A DNA stretch of 64,000 nt, from contig JALCNP010000011.1 of assembly GCA_022649135.1 (NCBI GenBank), forward strand, positions 1 to 64,000, read 5' to 3'. The position numbers and the translations under genes were made by a program. Below, piece after piece: positions 28,967-44,375 of the stretch. A model generated the notes under the pieces. The model was not told the DNA's origin, ran no database searches, and saw only the letters and a list, made by a program, of their open reading frames with translations. The DNA comes from Bifidobacterium sp. Lineage in GTDB: Bacteria; Actinomycetota; Actinomycetes; Actinomycetales; Bifidobacteriaceae. The number at the start of each line of letters is the position of its first letter. Within the stretch, counting starts at the first letter, position 1.

Positions 28967-31900
28967 ATGTATCTCAAGGAACTCACCCTCAAGGGGTTCA
29001 AATCATTCGCATCAGCCACGACGCTGAGATTCGAGCCGGGCATCACCGCCGTCGTCGGACCCAACGGGTCGGGGAAATCCAACATCGTCGACGCGCTGAC
29101 ATGGGTGATGGGCGAGCAGGGGGCCAGAAACCTGCGCGGCTCCACGATGGAGGACGTGATCTTCGCCGGCACCTCGAAACGTCCGCCTCTGGGTCGCGCC
29201 CAGGTGTCGCTGACCATCGACAACGCCGACCATACCCTCAACATCGACTATTCCGAGGTGACCATAACCCGGACGATTTTTCGCAACGGCGGTTCGCAGT
29301 ATGCCATCAACGGCTCCGCGTGCAGGCTCCTCGACATTCAGGAGCTGCTGTCGGACACCGGTCTCGGGCAGCAGATGCACGTCATAGTCGGCCAGGGACG
29401 CCTCGATTCGATACTTCGCGCGGACCCGAGCGGCCACCGGGCGTTCATCGAGGAGGCCGCGGGAATACTCAAGCACCGCAAGCGCAAGGAGCGCGCGCTT
29501 CGCAAGCTCTCCAACACGCAGACGAATCTTTCCCGGCTTGACGATCTTCTGCGCGAGCTGCATCGACAGCTTGGTCCTCTGGGCCGACAGGCGCGCATCT
29601 CCAGAAGGGCGGAGCGCATCCAGCTGTCGCTTCGCGACGCCCAGTCGCGTCTGTATGCACAGGACGCCAGCGAGCTGACGGCCCGGCGTGAGCGTCTCAA
29701 GACCGAACTCACGCAGGTGCGCTCCAGACTTGGCGACATGCAGGCGGATCTTGCCCGCGTCAAGGTCCGGATCGATCAGGTGGAGGCCCTGAGCTCCCGA
29801 TCCAGTCCGGACATGGCGGCGATCAACCAGACGTGGCATGACATGTCGCAGATTCAGGAGCGACTCAGGGCCGTCTCCTCCCTCGCGCAGGAGAGATCGA
29901 GGTCGCTGCGCGGCCAGATCACGACCAATGCGGGGGAGGATCCGGACCTGCTTGCGAAGAGGGCGGCGGAGCTCGAGCTTCAGGCCACGGTGCAGGAGAG
30001 AACGGTCTCCGACGCCCGGCTTCGCCTGGACAGGGCCGTGGAATCGCGTGCGGGAACCGAGAAACAGCTTGCATCGGTGCGGCAGACGCTGACGGAACTG
30101 AGAAAAACGAACCAGAAGAGGGAAAGCCGCATATCCCAGTTGAAGGAGCTGATCGCCAGGGAGGAGGGCGCGGTCCAGCTCGCGCGGACGCGCATGAAGG
30201 ATTTTCATGCGCAGCGCACTGACGTCGCCGCACGAACACAGGAGGCGAAGGAGCGATGCGAGGAGTTGGAGCGGCAGATGGACGCCGACCCGGATGACGG
30301 GGGAGCCTCGCTCGAAAACGCTCGAACCGTGCTGCGCACGAGACAGAACGAGCTTGACGATCTGCTCGCCCGGCAGCGCGATGTGGATTCGCGGATCATA
30401 TCCCTGCGGGCCAAGGCCGATGCCCTGCGCGATACTCTGGGAAGTCGCAATGCCACGGGGGCCCTGCAGAAGGACGAGAACGTCGCCGCGCTCGGGCGCC
30501 TCTCGGACTTCATCCGCGTGTCCGAGGGGTGGGAGGAGGCCGTCGCCCATGCCTTGGGGAGCTTCGCCAGCGCGATCATCGTTCCCGGGCGGGACACCAT
30601 GCTGCACGCTCTCGAGACGGCATGCTCCCAGCATCTGGGACGTGCGGTCGTCCTGCATCCGATCCAGGGGGATCCGATTGCACCTGATGCCCCCTCGGGA
30701 AGTGTCGGGGCCCTCGTCCATGGAAATCCCCAGGCGGATGACCCCGAGCAGGTCCGGCGTGTCGTCGCGGCCGTGCGCCTGCTTCTTGGCTCAATCGCCG
30801 CGGTGCGGGACAGGAACGACGCCGTGGAGGCCGTGAAGGGCGGCATGTGGAGGGCGGCGGTGACCCAGGCGGGGGAGCTCATCAACCCCGTGGGGGCCAT
30901 CGGCGGTTCGTCCCTCTCCCAGAGCGATCTCTCCCTGGCGGCAAGGAGGGACAAGGCCCTGGCCGAGGTCGAGAGCCTGAGGTCCCAGGCCTTGGATCTG
31001 GCGCGACAGGTCGAGGAATCCACAGCGGTCAGGGATCGTCAGAAGTCGAGTGTGGAGCTTCAGACCACCAGACGCACCGAGGCGGCCATGAAGGCTCGTC
31101 AGCGCGAGGATCTGCTTCGCTCCGCGAAGAAGACCCTGGAAACGCTCGCCCGGCAGGAGTCGGCCGTCGCCGATCGGTTGCGCGGCGCCGAAGAGGATGG
31201 TGACAGCCACACCCTGCGCGTCAATGATCTCAAGACCGCATTGCACACCCAGGAGACCAACGGCGAAACGGAGATCAACTTCGATGAGCTGACCGGGCGT
31301 GAGCGGGGACTGGAAGCTCAGCTGAACGCGACTCGTGAACGGGAGATGGGCGAGAAAGTCGCGTGGAGCACGGCGAACGGAACGCTGGATTCTCTTCGCA
31401 GACAGGTCTCTCTTCTGCGTGACAACGCCGAGAGGGCCCGGCAGAGGCGCGAGCGGATCCAGGCGCTCAATGACAGGCGGACCCGACAGGCCGATCGCAT
31501 CGACCGCGTCGCTTCGGACGCAGCGGCGGTTTCCCGGATCGTGGGTCATGTCATCGTCACGATCGACGAGCGGCGGGAGACTATGCAGCAGGAGGCGTCG
31601 AGCCATGACGACGAGTTGAAGGATCTGCGTGGGCGCCGCGACGGCATCGAACCCGTCCTCGCCGATCTGCAGAGGCATGAGCATGAGCTGGACGTGAGGC
31701 GTGAACGTCTCGCCGCCTCGTATGGGCAGCTCACTCAGCGGATCTCGGATGATCTTGCCATGAGCGTCGAGGAGCTGGTGGCGAATTACGGGCCGGATCG
31801 TCCCGTTCCCGTGTTGGACGACGACGGACGGCCCGTGCCTCTCGAGAACGGTGGGCACGAGAGGGATGACGGGCAGGAGGGGAGTGGCGGTCACCCGGGC

Positions 31901-32644
31901 GAATACGGCGAGGACGATGAGACCCTGTCCCGCATCCGGACGATGCCCTATGTGAGATCCGAGCAGCAGTCCCGTCTGGAGAAGGCTCGCCGTGACCTCA
32001 AGGCCCTGGGCAGAGTCAATCCGCTGGCCACGGAGGAGTACGACGCTCTGCAGGAGCGCAACCAGTATCTCAACGATCAGCGCAACGATGTGGCGAAGGG
32101 CCGGGATGACCTGATGCAGCTCATCAAGGATCTGGATTCCACGATGGTGCAGGTCTTCTCCGATGCCTTCGACGACACCGCGCACGCTTTCGAGCACGTC
32201 TTCTCCACGCTGTTTCCGGGTGGCACCGGACGTCTGCGCTTGGAAAACCCCGACGACATGCTGACCACGGGGGTTATCGTGGAGGCCAGCCCGGCGGGGA
32301 AACGCGTCAAGCAGCTCAGTCTGCTGTCGGGAGGGGAGCGCTCGCTGACGGCGCTCGCGCTTCTCTTCGCCATCTTCACGGCCCGTCCCAGTCCGTTCTA
32401 CGTGATGGACGAGGTCGAGGCGGCGTTGGACGACGTGAACCTGACGCGTCTCATCCACGCCTTCGACGAGCTTCGGCGGCATGCCCAGCTCATCATCATC
32501 ACCCATCAGCAGCGCACCATGGGCATTGCGGACGCCCTGTACGGCGTGACCATGCGCGCCGACGGCGTTACGGCGGTGCTGAGTCAGAGGCTTGACCGCG
32601 AGGGCGTCGGCGACGACGGGGCGGGGGCCTCGAACGAGCGATGA
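28967..32644 (+). CDS. smc: Chromosome segregation protein SMC
   Basis: The 1225-residue condensin ATPase organises and segregates the nucleoid with ScpA and ScpB, encoded about 20 kb downstream. The N-terminal ATPase half has Walker A VVGPNGSGKSN (31-39), then a long coiled coil (about 170-490), a hinge (about 500-660), the return coiled coil, and the C-terminal half with signature LLSGGERSLTALALLF and Walker B FYVMDEVEAALDD. A Gly/Asp/Glu-rich insert near residues 945-985 (GGHERDDGQEGSGGHPGEYG) interrupts the return coil and is unusual. The ribosome-binding site is weak (AGGGA), consistent with coupling to folC just upstream. Confidence 0.95.
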   Translation: MYLKELTLKGFKSFASATTLRFEPGITAVVGPNGSGKSNIVDALTWVMGEQGARNLRGSTMEDVIFAGTSKRPPLGRAQVSLTIDNADHTLNIDYSEVTITRTIFRNGGSQYAINGSACRLLDIQELLSDTGLGQQMHVIVGQGRLDSILRADPSGHRAFIEEAAGILKHRKRKERALRKLSNTQTNLSRLDDLLRELHRQLGPLGRQARISRRAERIQLSLRDAQSRLYAQDASELTARRERLKTELTQVRSRLGDMQADLARVKVRIDQVEALSSRSSPDMAAINQTWHDMSQIQERLRAVSSLAQERSRSLRGQITTNAGEDPDLLAKRAAELELQATVQERTVSDARLRLDRAVESRAGTEKQLASVRQTLTELRKTNQKRESRISQLKELIAREEGAVQLARTRMKDFHAQRTDVAARTQEAKERCEELERQMDADPDDGGASLENARTVLRTRQNELDDLLARQRDVDSRIISLRAKADALRDTLGSRNATGALQKDENVAALGRLSDFIRVSEGWEEAVAHALGSFASAIIVPGRDTMLHALETACSQHLGRAVVLHPIQGDPIAPDAPSGSVGALVHGNPQADDPEQVRRVVAAVRLLLGSIAAVRDRNDAVEAVKGGMWRAAVTQAGELINPVGAIGGSSLSQSDLSLAARRDKALAEVESLRSQALDLARQVEESTAVRDRQKSSVELQTTRRTEAAMKARQREDLLRSAKKTLETLARQESAVADRLRGAEEDGDSHTLRVNDLKTALHTQETNGETEINFDELTGRERGLEAQLNATREREMGEKVAWSTANGTLDSLRRQVSLLRDNAERARQRRERIQALNDRRTRQADRIDRVASDAAAVSRIVGHVIVTIDERRETMQQEASSHDDELKDLRGRRDGIEPVLADLQRHEHELDVRRERLAASYGQLTQRISDDLAMSVEELVANYGPDRPVPVLDDDGRPVPLENGGHERDDGQEGSGGHPGEYGEDDETLSRIRTMPYVRSEQQSRLEKARRDLKALGRVNPLATEEYDALQERNQYLNDQRNDVAKGRDDLMQLIKDLDSTMVQVFSDAFDDTAHAFEHVFSTLFPGGTGRLRLENPDDMLTTGVIVEASPAGKRVKQLSLLSGGERSLTALALLFAIFTARPSPFYVMDEVEAALDDVNLTRLIHAFDELRRHAQLIIITHQQRTMGIADALYGVTMRADGVTAVLSQRLDREGVGDDGAGASNER

Positions 32645-32705
32645 GGGGACCGGGACGGGAGAACGCGGCACCTGCTCAACGCGCGTCCCCCCGTGCGATT
32701 CCTGT

Positions 32706-33434
32706 CTAGCTGCCCCGGTTCTGATTGCGCAGCTCGCGCGCCTTGCGCACGGTGTCGACCGCAAGCACCGCCTGAGCGTCGATGATGGGAAGATCGGGCA
32801 TGGGGAATGCCTCGTTGAGGACCGACAGCTCCGTGCAGCCCAGTAGGACGACGTCGCAGTGATGGTTCTGCAGCATCGCGTTGACGGTGTGCAGATATCG
32901 TTCCCTGCTGAACACCCCGGTGTCCTTGACGTCATGATAGATCAGATAGCTGATGTCATCCTGCAGGTCTGCATCGGGCCTGACGAATTCGTAGCCGGCC
33001 CTCTCCAGAGGGCTGCGGTAGATGCCGGAGGACAGGCTGCCCTCCGTTCCCATGAACCCCACGCGCGGGTGGGTCGCCGCCGGGAAGCTGCGCTGCATCT
33101 GCGCGACGGCACCCAGAGGCATGTGCATGATCGGGACGGGCGTGAGAGCCTGGAGCCGGTCGAAGAAATAATGGGCGGTATTGCACGGCAGGGTGATGAA
33201 GGATGCCCCTATCAGCGTCGCCTGGCGGATGTCGTCCGCAATGGAGTCGAACGGATCCTCGGAGGTCCGACCGAGGATGAACTCGGTTCTGTCGGGCACG
33301 CTTGCGTCGTTGAAGACGACGTAGTCGAGAAAGTCCTGATCCCTGTGCGCATCGGTCGCGGCATCAAGAAGGCGTATGTAGCTTTCGGTCGCCAACGTCC
33401 CCATACCGCCGAGAACAGCAAAGAACCTTTTCAC
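32706..33434 (-). CDS. Aspartate/glutamate racemase family protein (probable aspartate racemase)
   Basis: The 242-residue protein is a cofactor-independent Asp/Glu racemase. It starts RFFAVLGGMGTLATESY, the aspartate-racemase N-terminus, and carries both catalytic cysteines: ITLPCNTAHYFFD and VVLLGCTELSVL. It would interconvert L- and D-aspartate in the cytoplasm. The true start is a GTG at 33434 with a perfect AAGGAG site, overlapping the ligase stop codon (GTGA). It is the last gene of a wall-synthesis operon, directly after a D-aspartate-ligase-type ATP-grasp enzyme, so its job is probably to make the D-Asp for the peptidoglycan side chain. Confidence 0.88.
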   Translation of the reverse strand: MKRFFAVLGGMGTLATESYIRLLDAATDAHRDQDFLDYVVFNDASVPDRTEFILGRTSEDPFDSIADDIRQATLIGASFITLPCNTAHYFFDRLQALTPVPIMHMPLGAVAQMQRSFPAATHPRVGFMGTEGSLSSGIYRSPLERAGYEFVRPDADLQDDISYLIYHDVKDTGVFSRERYLHTVNAMLQNHHCDVVLLGCTELSVLNEAFPMPDLPIIDAQAVLAVDTVRKARELRNQNRGS

Positions 33435-34675
33435 GCCAGATCTCCTTTTTGCTTGAAATACTGCGCATAACGCCGTTTGTAAATCGAGAACATGTGACGG
33501 ATCATCAGCCAGCGCAGAGGATTCATGTCGCGGGAATACTCCAGCGTCGTCCCCCAGTCTCCCGAGGCCAGCATGGACAGGCCCCGACGCTTGTCGTCCC
33601 CGTCGCTGACATACCTGCGGAAGATGGAGCGGGGAATCTCCAGCCACAGTTTGGAGCCCCGGCCGAACAGCGTGTTTCCGTCGAAGACGGTGTCCTCCAC
33701 GAGATCGTCGACGAAGCATGCGGCGAGATTGAAACCGTTCAGGGTGACGAAATAGCTGCTTCGCCCCTGGCGCAGGTTGATCTCGAACAGTTTGTATTCG
33801 CCGTCGCGCTCGTCGAACTTCATGTCGAAGTTCGCGACGCCCTCATAGCCGATATCTTCCAGGAAGGCCTTGATCTCAGTGAAAAGCGTCTCGTTGTAGT
33901 CCGGGATGATGGCCGCGTAGTTCCCCACGGCCTCGGGGGTGGGGTCCTCGAGGAGGGGGTGGCCCAGAAACATCATGCGTACCCGGTGATGCTGGTCGAC
34001 ATAGGCGTTGAGCACCCTCATGCGCGAATCGTCGCCGGGTATGAAGTCCTGGATGACCATGGTGCCTTCATAGCCCGCGTCATAGGAGAGGTTGATGAGC
34101 ATGTCGAGCTCGACGGGATCCTCGATGATGAAGGCCTTCTTGCGCCCAGGGAAATCGATGTCCAGCCATGCCGCGCTGTCGGAGGGCTTCATGGCCACCG
34201 GATAGTCGAAGGGGAGGTCCTTGTAGTCGCCGCGGACCACGGCCTCGCGATCCATCACCACGGTTTTGGGGTGGGGAAGGCCGTGCTTCTCGCAGATCTC
34301 GTAGAACGTGTTCTTGTAGCTCAGCGCCCGGGTGAGTCGGGGATCCAGCGTGTTGAACACGAAGTAGCGTCTGAGCTCGTTGCCGCAGGCGCTGAGGAGA
34401 TTGGCGTAGGCGTCCCCGCAGGGAATCAGCAGCAGTGTCGTGTTGGGGTGCCGCATCGTCATGCGTTTGCCCAGGTCGAGCATGGTCGTGCGGAACGTAT
34501 CCAGTTCCGAGAACTTCGGCACGATGTTCACCTGGATGATGCTGCTGAATTTGGTGGGGGAGAGCTGGAAGTGAGCGAACGCTATCGACGTGATGCCGTA
34601 TTCCTCGTGAAAGGCGCGGGCCATGCCGTACGCGTTGATGTCGCTGCCGAGCAAAATCGGTTGGAACTGCTTCAT
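33431..34675 (-). CDS. ATP-grasp ligase, probable D-aspartate ligase
   Basis: The 414-residue ATP-grasp enzyme resembles the Enterococcus faecium D-aspartate ligase Asl(fm), which joins D-Asp to the side-chain amine of residue three of the peptidoglycan stem. Close matches, from memory of that family, include PILLGSDINAYGMARAFHE at the start, VIQDFIPGDDSRMRVLNAYVD, GHPLLEDPTPEAVGNYAAII, NFDMKFDERDGEYKLFEIN with metal-binding acids, and NLRQGRSSYFVTLNG. The C terminus is basic (NPLRWLMIRHMFSIYKRRY), perhaps for membrane contact. It lies between the MurE-like pair and the racemase in one leftward operon. The gene overlaps the racemase start by four bases. Confidence 0.87.
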   Translation of the reverse strand: MKQFQPILLGSDINAYGMARAFHEEYGITSIAFAHFQLSPTKFSSIIQVNIVPKFSELDTFRTTMLDLGKRMTMRHPNTTLLLIPCGDAYANLLSACGNELRRYFVFNTLDPRLTRALSYKNTFYEICEKHGLPHPKTVVMDREAVVRGDYKDLPFDYPVAMKPSDSAAWLDIDFPGRKKAFIIEDPVELDMLINLSYDAGYEGTMVIQDFIPGDDSRMRVLNAYVDQHHRVRMMFLGHPLLEDPTPEAVGNYAAIIPDYNETLFTEIKAFLEDIGYEGVANFDMKFDERDGEYKLFEINLRQGRSSYFVTLNGFNLAACFVDDLVEDTVFDGNTLFGRGSKLWLEIPRSIFRRYVSDGDDKRRGLSMLASGDWGTTLEYSRDMNPLRWLMIRHMFSIYKRRYAQYFKQKGDLA

Positions 34676-34810
34676 AATTATTTACCTTACCTCGAAGTCT
34701 GTGCGAAGGCGCGAGGATCCCTCGCGCTCCGGTGCGGTGCGGGCCGCGCGGGTCCGCCGCCATTCTCGCTGATCATGGTCGGTGGGCCCGCGTTCGCGCG
34801 CCCCGCGCGA

Positions 34811-36379
34811 TCATCTATCCGCCGCCCCCAACGCGCGGGCGAGAACGGTCGCATCCCCCGCGAAGGGCACCGACCGGCCCCGGACGATGTTGTGCTTCTC
34901 GCTGCCCTTGCCGATGACCAGTATGATGTTGAAGCGCTCCGGATGGCTCCGCGCATCCGCGACCGCCGCTTCGATCGCCTCCTCGCGGGGTATGACGATG
35001 CGCGCCTGTGCATGCGGATCGCTGACGTGGGAGAGCATCTCCAGGGCGATGCTGCCGGGATCCTCGAAATCGGGGTCGTCGGTCGTGAAGACGAAGGACT
35101 CGACGCCCCCCAACGCGCCGGCCACGATGCCCCTGCGGCGATCGAGGGCCTTTCCGCCGGTGGAACCCGAAACCAGGATGATGCGGGGGTTCCTGTTTGC
35201 GTATTCGCGTCGTATCTCCCGCACGAGGGCTTTGGTGCTGGCGTAGTTGTGCGCGAAATCCACGTATCCGACGAGGCCGTCGGCCCCTTCTATCTTCTCC
35301 ATGCGCCCGGGAACCTGCACGGTCTCGATTGCCGACAGGGCGGGGTCGGTGGGCAGGATTCCGGCCGCGAGAGCCAGTGCGATGGCCGCTACGGCGTTTT
35401 CCCGGTTGAATGCGCCGTGCATGGCGAGCCGGTAGGAGCCCACGGGTCTGTCCCTCTCCTCGACGCTGAAAAGCATCCCGTCGTGCGGATCCTCGGTTGC
35501 GGTGATGGTGGCGGGGGTGTGGTGGTGGTTGTCGTGCAGGGCGAAGGTGGTGGTGGGTATGCGTGCGGCGCGGGCGTCCTGGGCGATGAGGTCGGCGTGC
35601 TGGCAGTCGGCCCCGAGCACGAGGGCGCGGCTGTTGGCGGTGATGCGGCGCTTGCAGTACAGATAGTCCTCGAAGGTGGGGTGCTCGATGGGGCTGATGT
35701 GGTCGGGGCTGATGTTGAGGAAGGCCCCCACGTCGAAGGTCAGCCCGTAGACGCGCTCGACCTTGTAGGCCTGGGAGGAGACCTCCATGATCAGGTAGCG
35801 CATGCCGTTGTCGGCCGCGTCCCGCATCATGCGGAACAGGTCGAGGCTTTCGGGCGTGGTCAGCTCGGACTCGCGGTAGGTGCGGCCGTCCAGGCAGTTG
35901 TCCACGGAGGACAGGAGCGCGGCCCTGCCGTGGCTGTGGGCGTTGAGGATGGCCTGGGTGAAGTAGGCGGTGGTGGTCTTGCCCTTGGTTCCGGTGATGC
36001 CGATGAGGGTGAGGTCCTCCTGGGGGCGTCCGTAGAACTCGGCGGCGAGCAGGCTCATGGCCCGGCGCACGTCGTTGACGATGATGCCGGGGGCGCGGGT
36101 GTGGTCGGCGTAGCTGGTCTCGGCCACGTAGGCGGCCAGGCCCCTGTCGTCGACGCCGTCGAGGTATCGGGGCTCGAAGCGGCCCTTGATGAAGAGCATG
36201 GAGCGCGGGCCCACCCGCCGCGTGTCGTAGGTGACGGCACCGATGGGGTCCCGGTCGCCGTCCACGTCGTCGGCGTCGAGGGTCCACGTCCCGCCCGCGA
36301 TCACCTCGCGGAGCAGGCCGCACCCGCCCAGAAGATCAACTGCACGTGCAAGTGTCAATGCTGGCTGTGGCCTGTCCAT
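34811..36379 (-). CDS. MurE-like UDP-MurNAc-tripeptide synthetase, copy A
   Basis: The 522-residue Mur ligase should add the third amino acid to UDP-MurNAc-L-Ala-D-Glu. The N-terminal UDP-binding domain and central domain with the ATP loop IGITGTKGKTTTAYF are identical in amino acids and apparently in DNA to copy B, from 35499 to 36357. The remaining 230 residues differ: the region of the amino-acid-binding motif reads FTTDDPDFEDP, of the DDP type seen in Lys/Orn enzymes rather than the DNPR of diaminopimelate enzymes. The glycine-rich GSTGGKALDRRRG is kept. This supports Lys or Orn as substrate (inference). ATG 36379 follows a purine-rich site. It lies 136 bp from the ligase and follows copy B in the same operon. 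Confidence 0.85.
   Translation of the reverse strand: MDRPQPALTLARAVDLLGGCGLLREVIAGGTWTLDADDVDGDRDPIGAVTYDTRRVGPRSMLFIKGRFEPRYLDGVDDRGLAAYVAETSYADHTRAPGIIVNDVRRAMSLLAAEFYGRPQEDLTLIGITGTKGKTTTAYFTQAILNAHSHGRAALLSSVDNCLDGRTYRESELTTPESLDLFRMMRDAADNGMRYLIMEVSSQAYKVERVYGLTFDVGAFLNISPDHISPIEHPTFEDYLYCKRRITANSRALVLGADCQHADLIAQDARAARIPTTTFALHDNHHHTPATITATEDPHDGMLFSVEERDRPVGSYRLAMHGAFNRENAVAAIALALAAGILPTDPALSAIETVQVPGRMEKIEGADGLVGYVDFAHNYASTKALVREIRREYANRNPRIILVSGSTGGKALDRRRGIVAGALGGVESFVFTTDDPDFEDPGSIALEMLSHVSDPHAQARIVIPREEAIEAAVADARSHPERFNIILVIGKGSEKHNIVRGRSVPFAGDATVLARALGAADR
35499..36357. repeat. 859-bp direct repeat, left copy
   Basis: This stretch, the 5' half of MurE copy A, recurs at 37164-38022 at a constant offset of 1665 bp with no difference that I could find by comparing lines and two reading frames. 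The divergence at both ends is abrupt, suggesting a recent gene conversion or duplication tract. Confidence 0.85.
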
Positions 36380-36478
36380 ATGTGTCGGTTTCTTTTCTCT
36401 TCTTCGCAATCCGTCCGCGTGTCCGAGAGAACATAGTAGACAAACCCGGTTCAATCAGCAACCGGCCATGATGTATCT

Positions 36479-38029
36479 TCACACCGTACACAGGCGGCGT
36501 GCGATCGCGTCGTCGCCCTCGTAGGGCACATGGCGGTTGCGGTCCTTGATCCAACGCTCGTCCCCCTTGCCGATGACGAGCACGACGTTGCGGCGGTCCG
36601 CATGGGTCCGCGCGTTCCGGATCGCATCCTCGACGGCGGCGGTGCGGTCCAGGATGATCTCCGACTGCACATCGGGGTTGCGCACATGCGAGAGCATGGT
36701 CCGGCAGATGTCCTCGAAGGGTTCCGTGTCGGTGTCCTCGCTGGTGAAGACGAAACGGGCGATCCGGTCTTCGCAGGCCCTGACGATCTCCTCGCGCCTC
36801 CCGTACGCCTTGTTTCCGGCGGCTCCGGTGACCATCGTGATGCGCGGGTCGTCGCTTCCGAAACGTTCCTGGACGAAATCGAGAAGCGCCGTCACCGAGC
36901 TGTAGTTGTGCGCGTAGTCCACGATCACCAGTGTCGGGGACTGCGCGTCGCTGAACTCCTCCATGCGTCCCGCGATGCGCACCTTCTCCATGGCGTGCAG
37001 GGATTGGGGGTCCTCGGCGTCCACGCCCAGTTCGTGGACGATGCATACGGCGGCCGCCGCGTTCGCATAGTTGAATGCACCGTCGATGGACAGGCTGAAC
37101 GTCGCGTCGCTGCCGTTGCGCGTCCTGATGGTGCAGGAGTTGTGCGTGATGTCCAGCTGACGGGCGGTGATGGTGGCGGGGGTGTGGTGGTGGTTGTCGT
37201 GCAGGGCGAAGGTGGTGGTGGGTATGCGTGCGGCGCGGGCGTCCTGGGCGATGAGGTCGGCGTGCTGGCAGTCGGCCCCGAGCACGAGGGCGCGGCTGTT
37301 GGCGGTGATGCGGCGCTTGCAGTACAGATAGTCCTCGAAGGTGGGGTGCTCGATGGGGCTGATGTGGTCGGGGCTGATGTTGAGGAAGGCCCCCACGTCG
37401 AAGGTCAGCCCGTAGACGCGCTCGACCTTGTAGGCCTGGGAGGAGACCTCCATGATCAGGTAGCGCATGCCGTTGTCGGCCGCGTCCCGCATCATGCGGA
37501 ACAGGTCGAGGCTTTCGGGCGTGGTCAGCTCGGACTCGCGGTAGGTGCGGCCGTCCAGGCAGTTGTCCACGGAGGACAGGAGCGCGGCCCTGCCGTGGCT
37601 GTGGGCGTTGAGGATGGCCTGGGTGAAGTAGGCGGTGGTGGTCTTGCCCTTGGTTCCGGTGATGCCGATGAGGGTGAGGTCCTCCTGGGGGCGTCCGTAG
37701 AACTCGGCGGCGAGCAGGCTCATGGCCCGGCGCACGTCGTTGACGATGATGCCGGGGGCGCGGGTGTGGTCGGCGTAGCTGGTCTCGGCCACGTAGGCGG
37801 CCAGGCCCCTGTCGTCGACGCCGTCGAGGTATCGGGGCTCGAAGCGGCCCTTGATGAAGAGCATGGAGCGCGGGCCCACCCGCCGCGTGTCGTAGGTGAC
37901 GGCACCGATGGGGTCCCGGTCGCCGTCCACGTCGTCGGCGTCGAGGGTCCACGTCCCGCCCGCGATCACCTCGCGGAGCAGGCCGCACCCGCCCAGAAGA
38001 TCAACTGCACGTGCAAGTGTCAGAGCCAT
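36479..38029 (-). CDS. MurE-like UDP-MurNAc-tripeptide synthetase, copy B
   Basis: The 516-residue paralogue of copy A is the first gene of the operon. Its UDP- and ATP-binding part (LTLARAVDLLGG to TPATITA) is identical to copy A, including the ATP loop GTKGKTTT and the carbamylated-Lys region YLYCKRRITAN. The C-terminal third differs: VTGAAGNKAYGRREEIV replaces the expected charged GGDRD-type loop, and the specificity region reads FTSEDTDTEPFEDI, unlike DNPR (diaminopimelate) or DDP (Lys) types. It could therefore use a different amino acid or a modified precursor, or be regulatory. A GAAAGG site precedes ATG 38029. Which copy is the housekeeping MurE cannot be told from this window. Confidence 0.83.
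   Translation of the reverse strand: MALTLARAVDLLGGCGLLREVIAGGTWTLDADDVDGDRDPIGAVTYDTRRVGPRSMLFIKGRFEPRYLDGVDDRGLAAYVAETSYADHTRAPGIIVNDVRRAMSLLAAEFYGRPQEDLTLIGITGTKGKTTTAYFTQAILNAHSHGRAALLSSVDNCLDGRTYRESELTTPESLDLFRMMRDAADNGMRYLIMEVSSQAYKVERVYGLTFDVGAFLNISPDHISPIEHPTFEDYLYCKRRITANSRALVLGADCQHADLIAQDARAARIPTTTFALHDNHHHTPATITARQLDITHNSCTIRTRNGSDATFSLSIDGAFNYANAAAAVCIVHELGVDAEDPQSLHAMEKVRIAGRMEEFSDAQSPTLVIVDYAHNYSSVTALLDFVQERFGSDDPRITMVTGAAGNKAYGRREEIVRACEDRIARFVFTSEDTDTEPFEDICRTMLSHVRNPDVQSEIILDRTAAVEDAIRNARTHADRRNVVLVIGKGDERWIKDRNRHVPYEGDDAIARRLCTV
37164..38022. repeat. 859-bp direct repeat, right copy
   Basis: The right copy of the repeat shared with 35499-36357. It covers codons 3 to about 288 of MurE copy B. 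Recombination between the copies would delete 1665 bp and fuse the copy B start to the copy A C-terminal domain, leaving one intact chimaeric ligase gene. Confidence 0.85.
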
Positions 38030-40352: not shown

Positions 40353-41303
40353 TCAGATGTCCTCGGCCCGATAGGTGATGGTCGTCGCATAATCCTCTCC
40401 CGGCCGCACCCTCACGAGATTTTTCCCGCTGCGGAAGGCGTCGGCGTAGGCAGTCATCGGTTCGACCGCCACGCCGGCCTGGTGGATGCCTTCGGGGAAT
40501 CCCGTTCCCGTGCATATCTGCCAGGCGTTGATCGTCTCGTCTCCGGTCAGGGTGACCTTCAGACCATCGGGTCGGGTGAAGACGGCTGAGGTGCCGCCGT
40601 GCGCATCGCGCTCCACCCCGGTCCACGCGTCGTCGAAGACGTGGTTGAGCAGCGCGGGATTCGAGCGGAGGTCGAAGGGTGTGCCGTCCACCGGCTCCTC
40701 TCCGGTCGGCAGCAGTCGTGCGTCCACGGTGACGTGTCGTGCACAGTGCAGCTCCACTCGGCAACGGTCGTTGTCCGCGTCGATCGCATCGCCGGTGGCG
40801 TGGCCTCCGTTGGAGAGCCAGGGGTGTATCCCGAACGCCCATGGGGCCTCGACGGAATCGTCGTTGTGCACGCGGACGGTCTGCGACAGTCCCCGCTCGC
40901 TCAGCGCGTAGGTGGCCGTCACGGTGATGTCGAAGGGGTACCCGGCGAGGTCGGGGGCCCTCCACGACAGGGTGACGTGCGATTCGCCGAGGTCCTCGAG
41001 CTTCCACATGTATCGATATGAATACCCGTGCAGCGCCGTATGCCGGTCGACCTCGTCGATCGGCATCTGATAGGTGGTTCCGTTGAACTCATAGGAGCCA
41101 TCCTTCACGCGGTTGGGGTACGGGGTGAGTATCCAGCCGTTGCTGCACGGGATAAGCCGGTCGGGGTCGAAGGGGACGACGATGTCCCTGCCCTTCCAGG
41201 TCAGCCTGCGCAGGCTGGCTCCCAGTTCGGTGACGGTCGCCCGCCATTGGCCTGCGCTGATGGCGTACTGGTTGCCCGTTCGTGGTTTTCTTGGTGTTGA
41301 CAT
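40353..41303 (-). CDS. Aldose 1-epimerase family protein, copy 1
   Basis: A 316-residue galactose-mutarotase-like protein. The beta-sandwich landmarks are TELGASLRRLTW at the start, LTPYPNRVKDGSYEFNGTTYQMP, HTALHGYSYRYMW with the catalytic His, AFGIHPWL with the second His, and a late GIHQAGVAVEPMTAYADAF containing the acidic residue expected near the end. It should interconvert alpha and beta anomers of a hexose or act as a glucose-6-phosphate 1-epimerase. It starts at ATG 41303 with an AAAGGA site. The gene immediately upstream is a paralogue (copy 2), about 100 bp away in the same direction, so they are probably co-transcribed. Confidence 0.87.
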   Translation of the reverse strand: MSTPRKPRTGNQYAISAGQWRATVTELGASLRRLTWKGRDIVVPFDPDRLIPCSNGWILTPYPNRVKDGSYEFNGTTYQMPIDEVDRHTALHGYSYRYMWKLEDLGESHVTLSWRAPDLAGYPFDITVTATYALSERGLSQTVRVHNDDSVEAPWAFGIHPWLSNGGHATGDAIDADNDRCRVELHCARHVTVDARLLPTGEEPVDGTPFDLRSNPALLNHVFDDAWTGVERDAHGGTSAVFTRPDGLKVTLTGDETINAWQICTGTGFPEGIHQAGVAVEPMTAYADAFRSGKNLVRVRPGEDYATTITYRAEDI

Positions 41304-41406
41304 GGTGTTCTTTCCTTTCGGACGGTGATGCGTCGCTTGCTGATGTTCCCGGATGCCCGGGCGCCGCGGCACGCCGGTGCGCCGCGGCCTGTTACCGCTC
41401 ACAATT

Positions 41407-42360
41407 CTAGCGCTGCGCGACCTGGTAACGCACCGTGGTCGAATACGAGTCCCCGGCCGGTATCGACACCAGGTGGGCTCCGGTGCGGAAGGCGTTCGCC
41501 GGGGCTGTCATGGGTTCGACCGCGATTCCCGCGGGATGCTCGTCGATCGGGGCGCCCGTGGCCGTGTAGCACTGCCATGCGTTGACCGTGCGATCCGCGA
41601 TGATGCTCACCTCCACGCCATCCGGTCTGGTGAACACCGCAGCCGTCGTCCCGTCCTTGCCTCTGGCCACGTCCACCCACGCATCGTCGAAGGTGCGGCC
41701 TTCAAGCGTGGGGGAGTCGCGCAGGTCATAGACGCCCGTGACGGGTTCGGTCCCCACGGGGATGAGACTGTCGTTGACGGTCACATGCGTGTCCGCATCG
41801 ATGCGCAGCCGGCATCTCTGCGAGTCCGCGTCCCGTTCGGCGGCCGTTTCCCCGTTGCCGCCGTTGGCGAGCCAGGGGTGGAAGCCCAGGGCCCACGGCG
41901 CCGTCCTCGAATCGTTGTTCGTGGCGGTCACGGTGGCGCTCAGGCCCCGTTCGTCGATGGCATAGGTCGCCTTCAGGGAGAGGTCGAACGGGTATCCGTC
42001 CAGATTCGGGAACCGCAGGGATTGGGTTACGCTGGTCTCCGTCAGGCATTCGAGACTCCAGAAGTATTGATAGGCGAATCCGTGGTTGGCGTTGTTCCGG
42101 GGCTTCGGGGTCTGCTCGTTGACGGGCACGCGGTAGTGGCTCCCGCCGAAGTCGTATTCGCCGTTTTCCATGCGGTTCGGCCACGGGGCGAGGATGTATC
42201 CGTTGCATGTGGGGGTGAGATCGTCCTGGCCGAAGGGACACAGCACCGGCTTCCCCGAGTGGTCGAAGCGGCGTATCTTCGCGCCGAGCTGGCATATGAC
42301 GGCGGAGAGTTCCCCCGCATGGATGCAATATTGGTTTCCTGTGCGAGCCTGTGTGCTCAT
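41407..42360 (-). CDS. Aldose 1-epimerase family protein, copy 2
   Basis: The 317-residue paralogue of the neighbouring epimerase shares its segments throughout: TGNQYCIHAGELSAVICQLGAKIRRF, CNGYILAPWPNRMENGEYDFGGSHYRVPVNE, NANHGFAYQYFWSLE with the catalytic His, ALGFHPWLANGG with the second His, and IAVEPMTAPANAFRTG. The copies differ enough that the duplication is old and substrate ranges may differ. A GAGG ribosome-binding site lies just upstream of ATG 42360. It is the first gene of the pair and divergent from ispH. Confidence 0.87.
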   Translation of the reverse strand: MSTQARTGNQYCIHAGELSAVICQLGAKIRRFDHSGKPVLCPFGQDDLTPTCNGYILAPWPNRMENGEYDFGGSHYRVPVNEQTPKPRNNANHGFAYQYFWSLECLTETSVTQSLRFPNLDGYPFDLSLKATYAIDERGLSATVTATNNDSRTAPWALGFHPWLANGGNGETAAERDADSQRCRLRIDADTHVTVNDSLIPVGTEPVTGVYDLRDSPTLEGRTFDDAWVDVARGKDGTTAAVFTRPDGVEVSIIADRTVNAWQCYTATGAPIDEHPAGIAVEPMTAPANAFRTGAHLVSIPAGDSYSTTVRYQVAQR

Positions 42361-44325: not shown

Positions 44326-44375
44326 GTCAAAAGCGGTTTTCCGCACGGCATGCCGTGCGGAAAACCGCTTTTGAC
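44326..44375 (-). terminator. Perfect 50-bp palindrome after gap
   Basis: A 50-bp perfectly self-complementary sequence (centre CCGCACGGCATGCCGTGCGG) lies 80 bp past the gap stop and upstream of ybaK. The arms contain AAAA/TTTT runs at their tops. It would form an exceptionally stable hairpin and most likely ends transcription of gap. Confidence 0.7.

Follow-up and report, generated by a model that had tools for sequence, protein, structure and literature searches.

According to excerpts of PMC3829189, the MurE ligase of Staphylococcus aureus binds the epsilon-amine of lysine (Lys) through Asp406, the first residue of its DNPA loop, and Glu460, and takes ornithine (Orn) with 400-fold lower specificity, while the DNPR motif binds meso-diaminopimelate (mDAP). 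Part of PMC4155827 places racD and aslA of Lactococcus lactis in one operon. In Bifidobacterium, the sections available of two sources give an L-Lys-Gly wall for B. breve and a wall with L-Orn for B. lactis (PMC11209152), and wall types 3alpha, 3beta and 4gamma for the genus (PMC11382707). Here we describe a wall-precursor locus in a 64,000-nucleotide stretch of a Bifidobacterium sp. draft genome (GenBank assembly GCA_022649135.1, contig JALCNP010000011.1, positions 1 to 64,000, hereafter “the window”), in which two MurE genes, MurE-B and MurE-A, stand side by side with an identical front half and diverged C-terminal parts. We consider it probable, with the inferred functions included, that this reflects recurrent conversion of the N-terminal half between two old MurE paralogs that carry distinct specificity heads.

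The two genes are encoded on the minus strand. MurE-B (36479..38029, 516 aa, with Mur_ligase_M and Mur_ligase_C domains) is the upstream member of the pair, and MurE-A (34811..36379) encodes 522 aa from the ATG at 36379, although an alternative TTG start at 36454 is possible. An initial annotation, made by eye, had proposed two tandem MurE-like genes sharing a perfect 859-bp tract at a constant 1665-bp offset, with an abrupt end to the identity, and all three points were borne out: the genes are full length, both with Mur middle and C-terminal domains and a predicted MurE fold; base-by-base comparison of the MurE-B copy (37164..38022, minus strand) with the MurE-A copy (35499..36357, minus strand) returned 859 of 859 equal bases at offset 1665, this being the maximal exact run; and each 50-base step beyond the tract ends held 21 to 42 differences. 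No differences in 859 positions place the 95% upper bound on divergence at about 0.35% (rule of three), with perfect rather than near identity resting on draft assembly sequence. A search of the draft genome (2.37 Mb in 33 contigs) returned exactly two full copies of the tract, each within contig C11, and besides them only two short matches (36 and 52 bases). Between the repeats lies an 806-nt spacer (36358..37163, minus strand) that spans the diverged C-terminal part of MurE-B, the gap between the genes and the beginning of MurE-A; the spacer and one repeat copy together make the 1665 bp that recombination would remove. In MurE-B the tract opens in codon 3 and closes in codon 289, where a beta strand is predicted (residues 287-293) within the Mur middle domain (Mur_ligase_M, residues 123-330 by Pfam). 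Because some 65 residues separate its end from the C-terminal domain (354-489), the diverged part consists of the end of domain 2 and all of domain 3, and the A-type diverged half of MurE-A occupies 34814..35498 (minus strand). The suggestion that the diverged last third is the amino-acid-binding domain was thus a little too narrow, since the end of domain 2 has diverged too.

Silent sites carry the case for conversion in the window. Among codons of the MurE family that vary silently, 212 of 213 agree between the two window copies, compared with 57-69% of same-amino-acid codons when A and B are compared across genomes, which puts the identity far beyond chance or protein-level constraint. Over codons 3-289 the window paralogs are more alike than orthologs are, silent sites included, which is the mark of gene conversion. 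Related genomes showed where this sits within the genus: a MurE match at E ≤ 1e-30 was found in 111 of 112 same-genus genomes (the window's own included). Of the 110 matching genomes besides the window's own, 100 contributed a fetched locus to the analysis. Two full-length MurE genes side by side occur in 15 of the 112 (again including the window's own), a sixteenth (G064) has a tandem with a broken B, and two further tandem species found by name, B. callimiconis and B. vansinderenii, carry the B loop EDSD. The order B-A, as assigned by loop type, holds in all 14 other tandem genomes, and a close ATP-grasp gene and a racemase gene follow the pair in 11 of them. Across the 101 loci examined, a B-type MurE stands alone in 76 and an A-type alone in nine. 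B. subtile (L101) is a single-A species. In B. pullorum DSM 20433 (L109), an internal deletion that shifts the reading frame has made MurE-B a pseudogene (4204-5060 of the locus), cut to about its first 205 residues plus the last ~50 codons in another frame, with the frames of A, ATP-grasp and racemase open. As a separate observation, genome G085 has a sole MurE whose coding sequence is divided between two overlapping frames (L016, 4051-5622), a frameshift or sequencing error in what should be an essential gene.

Comparison with these relatives, which the initial annotation had proposed, showed smaller conversion tracts in 7 to 8 of the 14 other tandem genomes. Nucleotide identity between paralogs in these genomes was 58-74% for residues 5-100, 70-91% for 101-200 and 69-80% for 201-288, then 48-74% for 289-345 and 53-64% for 346-513, and the longest exact A-B runs were 32-200 nt (171 and 239 nt in the two species found by name). 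In 8 of the 14, the genome's own paralog exceeded the best ortholog of both genes in at least one 30-codon window, one such window in L007 lying past the front half (residues 303-332). Runs of silent identity reached P ≤ 0.0036 in 8 of 14 own pairs with 20,000 permutations (7 of 14 with 2,000), against 3 of 182 cross-genome A-B control pairs; at P ≤ 0.05 the counts were 10 of 14 and 25 of 182 (2,000 permutations). The own silent run was longer than all 26 cross-genome runs involving either gene in 9 of 14. In its paralog-over-ortholog likeness, silent-site runs and abrupt ends the pattern matches concerted evolution of tandem paralogs in general; it differs in being largely confined to the chassis half (with the one L007 window outside it), while the head stays diverged across the genus.

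Separate phylogenies of the two halves, which the initial annotation had called for, gave two different histories. Careful trees took 66 of 118 MurE sequences, leaving out 48 of 75 single B sequences and the four sequences of L015 and L016. In the C-terminal domain tree, the A-type (24 sequences) and B-type (42) were separate with 100/100 support each, window MurE-A falling among the A sequences and window MurE-B among the B sequences; judged from these sequences, the A and B heads are two old Bifidobacterium clades. The N-halves of A and B, by contrast, were hardly more different than orthologs. Identity in domain 3 was 43-44% for A-B, 67% for A-A and 58% for B-B, and the end of domain 2 (residues 289-345) resembled it (35-37%, 46% and 45%, respectively), whereas domain 2a, the most conserved part in all MurE copies, gave 68-69% for A-B pairs of different genomes, 72% for A-A and 75% for B-B, and domain 1 gave 53-56%, 61% and 58%. 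That A-B values are near within-type levels in the N-half and not in the heads points either to repeated homogenization of the front half or to an early exchange of heads followed by later mixing of front halves. With the old split of the heads and silent-site conversion tracts in other genomes, the window is best read as an extreme case of recurrent gene conversion that spares the two heads. A Lactobacillales origin of the A head was also considered and found no support, as A and B heads fall together inside Bifidobacteriaceae (quick trees of 54 sequences).

Both proteins have what is, by structural modeling, a complete predicted MurE fold. PF08245 and PF02875 scored above cut-off in both, the P-loop GTKGKTT is present, and AlphaFold models had mean pLDDT (predicted local distance difference test) scores of 90.7 and 89.7. 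The best structure matches of both models were the MurE structures 2xja and 4c12/4c13 (Z 37.9-38.8, root mean square deviation [rmsd] 2.4-2.9, 471-479 residues aligned); MurE-B matched Mycobacterium tuberculosis 2xja with Z 38.8 (rmsd 2.6, 474 aligned) and MurE-A matched S. aureus 4c12/4c13 with Z 38.8 (rmsd 2.5-2.6, 474 aligned), and matches less than 1 Z apart were treated as ties. The window enzymes therefore share middle and C-terminal domains, P-loop and a predicted fold over ~475 residues with known MurE (TIGR01085; 4c12/4c13, 2xja), but differ in being two tandem copies with a common front half and in carrying DDPD or EDTD in place of DNPR or DNPA. At the position of E. coli DNPR, MurE-B has EDTD (residues 431-434; 36728..36739, minus strand) and MurE-A has DDPD (residues 434-437; 35069..35080, minus strand); the DNPR loop with its mDAP-carboxylate-binding Arg was found in neither. 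The top-scoring NCBIfam model for both enzymes (NF001129) carries the name mDAP ligase, which this replacement of DNPR contradicts. On the naming threshold of TIGR01085 (murE, 257.3 bits, not a trait), MurE-B scored 265.8, and MurE-B was also above the NF001129 cut-off.

The specificity loops differ between tandem A and B. All 25 A-type sequences have DDP[ND] and all 15 tandem B have EDTD, while the 75 single B sequences divide into 60 with EDT[DNVE] or EDSD, 13 with DDP[DN] and 2 with DDTN; the equivalent of Glu460 is retained in every B sequence, whether tandem (15) or single (75), and in 24 of 25 A sequences, the remaining A having Asp. The Lactobacillales outgroup (34 loci in the set) had DDPx in 14 of 14 loops examined, and although one of the two peptide patterns used to fetch these loci was T[LTM]DDP[ND]xED, all 14 loops fall outside that pattern, which means that the DDP shared with A is not a search artifact. 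A single B-type MurE with a DDPD loop occurs together with ATP-grasp and racemase genes in L044, L047, L051-L053, L057 and L094, seemingly a second, separate appearance of the DDP loop.

Downstream of the pair, the minus-strand order continues from MurE-B and MurE-A to an ATP-grasp ligase gene (33431..34675, 414 aa) and an Asp/Glu racemase gene (32706..33419; start not settled; PF01177 and TIGR00035 above cut-off). From homology, the former is a probable D-aspartate (D-Asp) ligase of the AslA/Aslfm type and the latter the probable source of D-Asp. The ATP-grasp protein had one match each in 5 of 6 Lactobacillales genomes (43-53% identity), and a racemase adjoins the match in 3 of those 5 (flanks seen to at most 1.5 kb); these matches are candidate AslA proteins. 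No Pfam match to the protein was found at E ≤ 0.001 and all its NCBIfam matches were far under cut-off, while the single match among solved structures (E 0.058) was rejected as not credible. Relative to AslA/Aslfm with RacD in Lactococcus and Enterococcus, the window genes are alike in ATP-grasp homology and in an operon-like layout with the racemase (as described in PMC4155827) but cluster with two murE genes, and their ligase activity is a prediction; the order murE, ATP-grasp, racemase also occurs in one Lactobacillales genome (L183). Counting the 100 fetched loci and the window, a close ATP-grasp gene (≥50% identity) lies near murE in 17 of 25 A-type loci and 14 of 76 loci without A, relatedness being ignored in this count. 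Near murE in L009, L011, L012, L050, L054, L055 and L083 there is a distant ATP-grasp gene (~35-38% identical), the close D-Asp-ligase-like gene not being found at these loci, perhaps a sign that their bridge uses a different amino acid.

Taken together, the order and strand of the genes suggest a wall-precursor operon of two old paralogs, B and A, with genes for a probable D-Asp ligase and an Asp racemase behind them. The C-terminal domain, in which A and B differ, selects the amino acid at position 3 of the stem peptide. Conversion, which has recurred in part of the tandem genomes, would repeatedly copy stretches of the N-terminal part, which binds ATP and the UDP-MurNAc (UDP-N-acetylmuramic acid) substrate, between the neighbors wherever DNA similarity permits. 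Loss of similarity presumably sets the tract end, which in the window falls at B codon 289; with conversion halting at dissimilar DNA, the heads would stay distinct while the common chassis is homogenized. The last event in this genome is recent and spanned the whole alignable half. Many bifidobacteria were reported in older chemotaxonomy to have both lysine and ornithine in the wall, and wall types include Lys-D-Asp in B. pullorum and Lys(Orn)-D-Asp in B. dentium. To judge by the loops, MurE-A, with its canonical DDPx loop, probably adds L-Lys, and MurE-B, with EDTx and hence Glu where S. aureus MurE has the Asp that binds the epsilon-amine of Lys, is probably the ancestral enzyme that accepts both Orn and Lys; together they could lead to mixed Lys/Orn walls. 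By analogy with the S. aureus enzyme, a Glu for Asp406 would bring the acid one carbon closer, which may suit Orn, and A and B together might determine the mix of Lys and Orn onto which the D-Asp bridge is added.

The tandem pair offers a direct test system, in which equal chassis carry different heads, for Lys versus Orn. It is also a clean natural case of a protein that conversion homogenizes in one region while leaving its function-defining region untouched. Among the matches listed by our literature searches (titles and abstract openings, with subscription literature mostly uncovered), no title concerned paired murE genes in Bifidobacterium and none described the enzyme basis of Lys plus Orn walls in bifidobacteria. 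A table of wall types of Bifidobacterium species was not found in the literature searched, and the portion of PMC6113628 available gave no help on them.

Several observations weigh against recurrent conversion between functionally distinct paralogs. The own silent run was not the longest in 5 of the 14 other tandem genomes (L003, L005, L009, L011 and L013), 6 to 7 of the 14 pairs had no significant tract, and part of the high identity across B residues 183-242 is ordinary conservation; since nearly all sites match in the window, its own permutation P of 0.0089 is uninformative. The donor of the window tract is also blurred. Placing the window sequence with the A N-half clade comes at a cost of 7.8 log units (approximately unbiased [AU] test, P = 0.37), and nucleotide identity averaged 70.3 with A, 71.2 with tandem B and 68.2 with single B sequences, although the highest individual match (76.8) was to a single B. 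By segment, residues 4-85 are slightly A-like and 86-182 B-like, and neither the trees nor the mean identities decide the direction. In the C-terminal domain tree, window MurE-B stands outside the main tandem-B clade and the long branches of window MurE-A and L086 meet. As to function, MurE-A falls slightly under both the TIGR01085 cut-off (253.2 bits, 4 under) and that of NF001129 (754.6 against 762, 7 under). EDTx loops also occur in single-B species whose walls we take to contain Lys, so B is better viewed as relaxed. Lys incorporation is attributed in excerpts of PMC3829189 to lysine supply and not to pocket specificity.

Some explanations dispense with conversion. Strong protein-level selection might keep the N-halves alike, domain 2a being the most conserved part of all copies, but 212 of 213 silent codons are equal too and the identity breaks off within a codon, so that pure selection is rejected by the silent sites and can hardly be credited at all. 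Collapse of two similar copies into one consensus is conceivable in a draft genome of 33 contigs; it is nonetheless very improbable, as the window contains no N, both copies lie within one contig with no third copy, copies as different as those of other species (58-91% nucleotide identity in parts of the N-half) should not merge, and weaker tracts occur in the single-contig genomes L001 and L003. The initial annotation had offered, besides recent conversion of the UDP- and ATP-binding half, a modular swap of that half which determines specificity. A recent swap in this lineage would have duplicated one MurE and given one copy a foreign C-terminal half. The abrupt end of identity and the differing heads would fit such a swap, and the position of window MurE-B just outside the main tandem-B clade leaves room for an independent tandem origin. 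We think a swap improbable, because both heads belong to old Bifidobacterium clades, each C-half in its own, and all 14 other tandem genomes have the B-A order, 11 of them with the close ATP-grasp gene and the racemase gene next. Recent conversion is instead well supported, the window being the strongest case of a process found in several relatives.

The remaining alternatives concern what the pair does. The annotation had also envisaged a recombination switch. A crossover between the direct repeats would remove 1665 bp and keep one gene composed of the B promoter, the common N-half and an A head, so that the population would mix wall types. The repeats are perfect over 859 bp and 806 bp apart, a geometry that would allow the deletion, and the expected product layout (a single A-type MurE with ATP-grasp and racemase) is seen in L084, L085, L087 and L088. 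However, L085, L087 and L088 carry A-type N-halves, as do all six single-A sequences other than L083, L084 and L086, and so are not B-A chimeras. L083, L084 and L086 combine A-type C-domains with N-halves that the best tree places outside the A N-half clade, a hint of origin by deletion that the AU test does not support, since A-type N-halves are not rejected (L083, P = 0.168; L084, P = 0.449; L086, P = 0.197). B. pullorum DSM 20433 lost B by internal deletion and not by repeat recombination. We regard the switch as doubtful. Slightly more doubtful still is the broader idea of one chassis with two exchangeable heads (Lys, and Orn/Lys), in which conversion keeps the chassis recombinogenic and loss of the 1665 bp yields Lys-only cells; if true, it would be a natural recombination-driven change of wall chemistry, with some single-A species as fixed end states. 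Finally, both enzymes might share one specificity, the second copy giving only dose or regulation. Both window proteins lack the DNPR Arg and have the Glu460 equivalent, and many loci have a B-type or an A-type MurE alone (76 and nine of 101, respectively), but the loops differ in 15 of 15 tandem pairs and the domain 3 split is old and maintained, so a shared specificity seems unlikely, if a good deal less far-fetched than an artifact.

Elsewhere in the window, two adjacent related genes on the minus strand (40353-41402 and 41407-42360), aldose-1-epimerase-like by eye, share a 67-nt stretch that is 73% alike and form a second tandem pair nearby, for which no long identical tract was reported. 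A perfect palindrome with 28-nt overlapping arms lies at 44326-44375, near a gene that resembles GAPDH by eye. Long antisense open reading frames of 995 codons (33449-36436, plus strand) and 714 codons (30791-32935, minus strand) run opposite the wall genes and an SMC-like gene, and are probably an effect of codon bias in GC-rich DNA.

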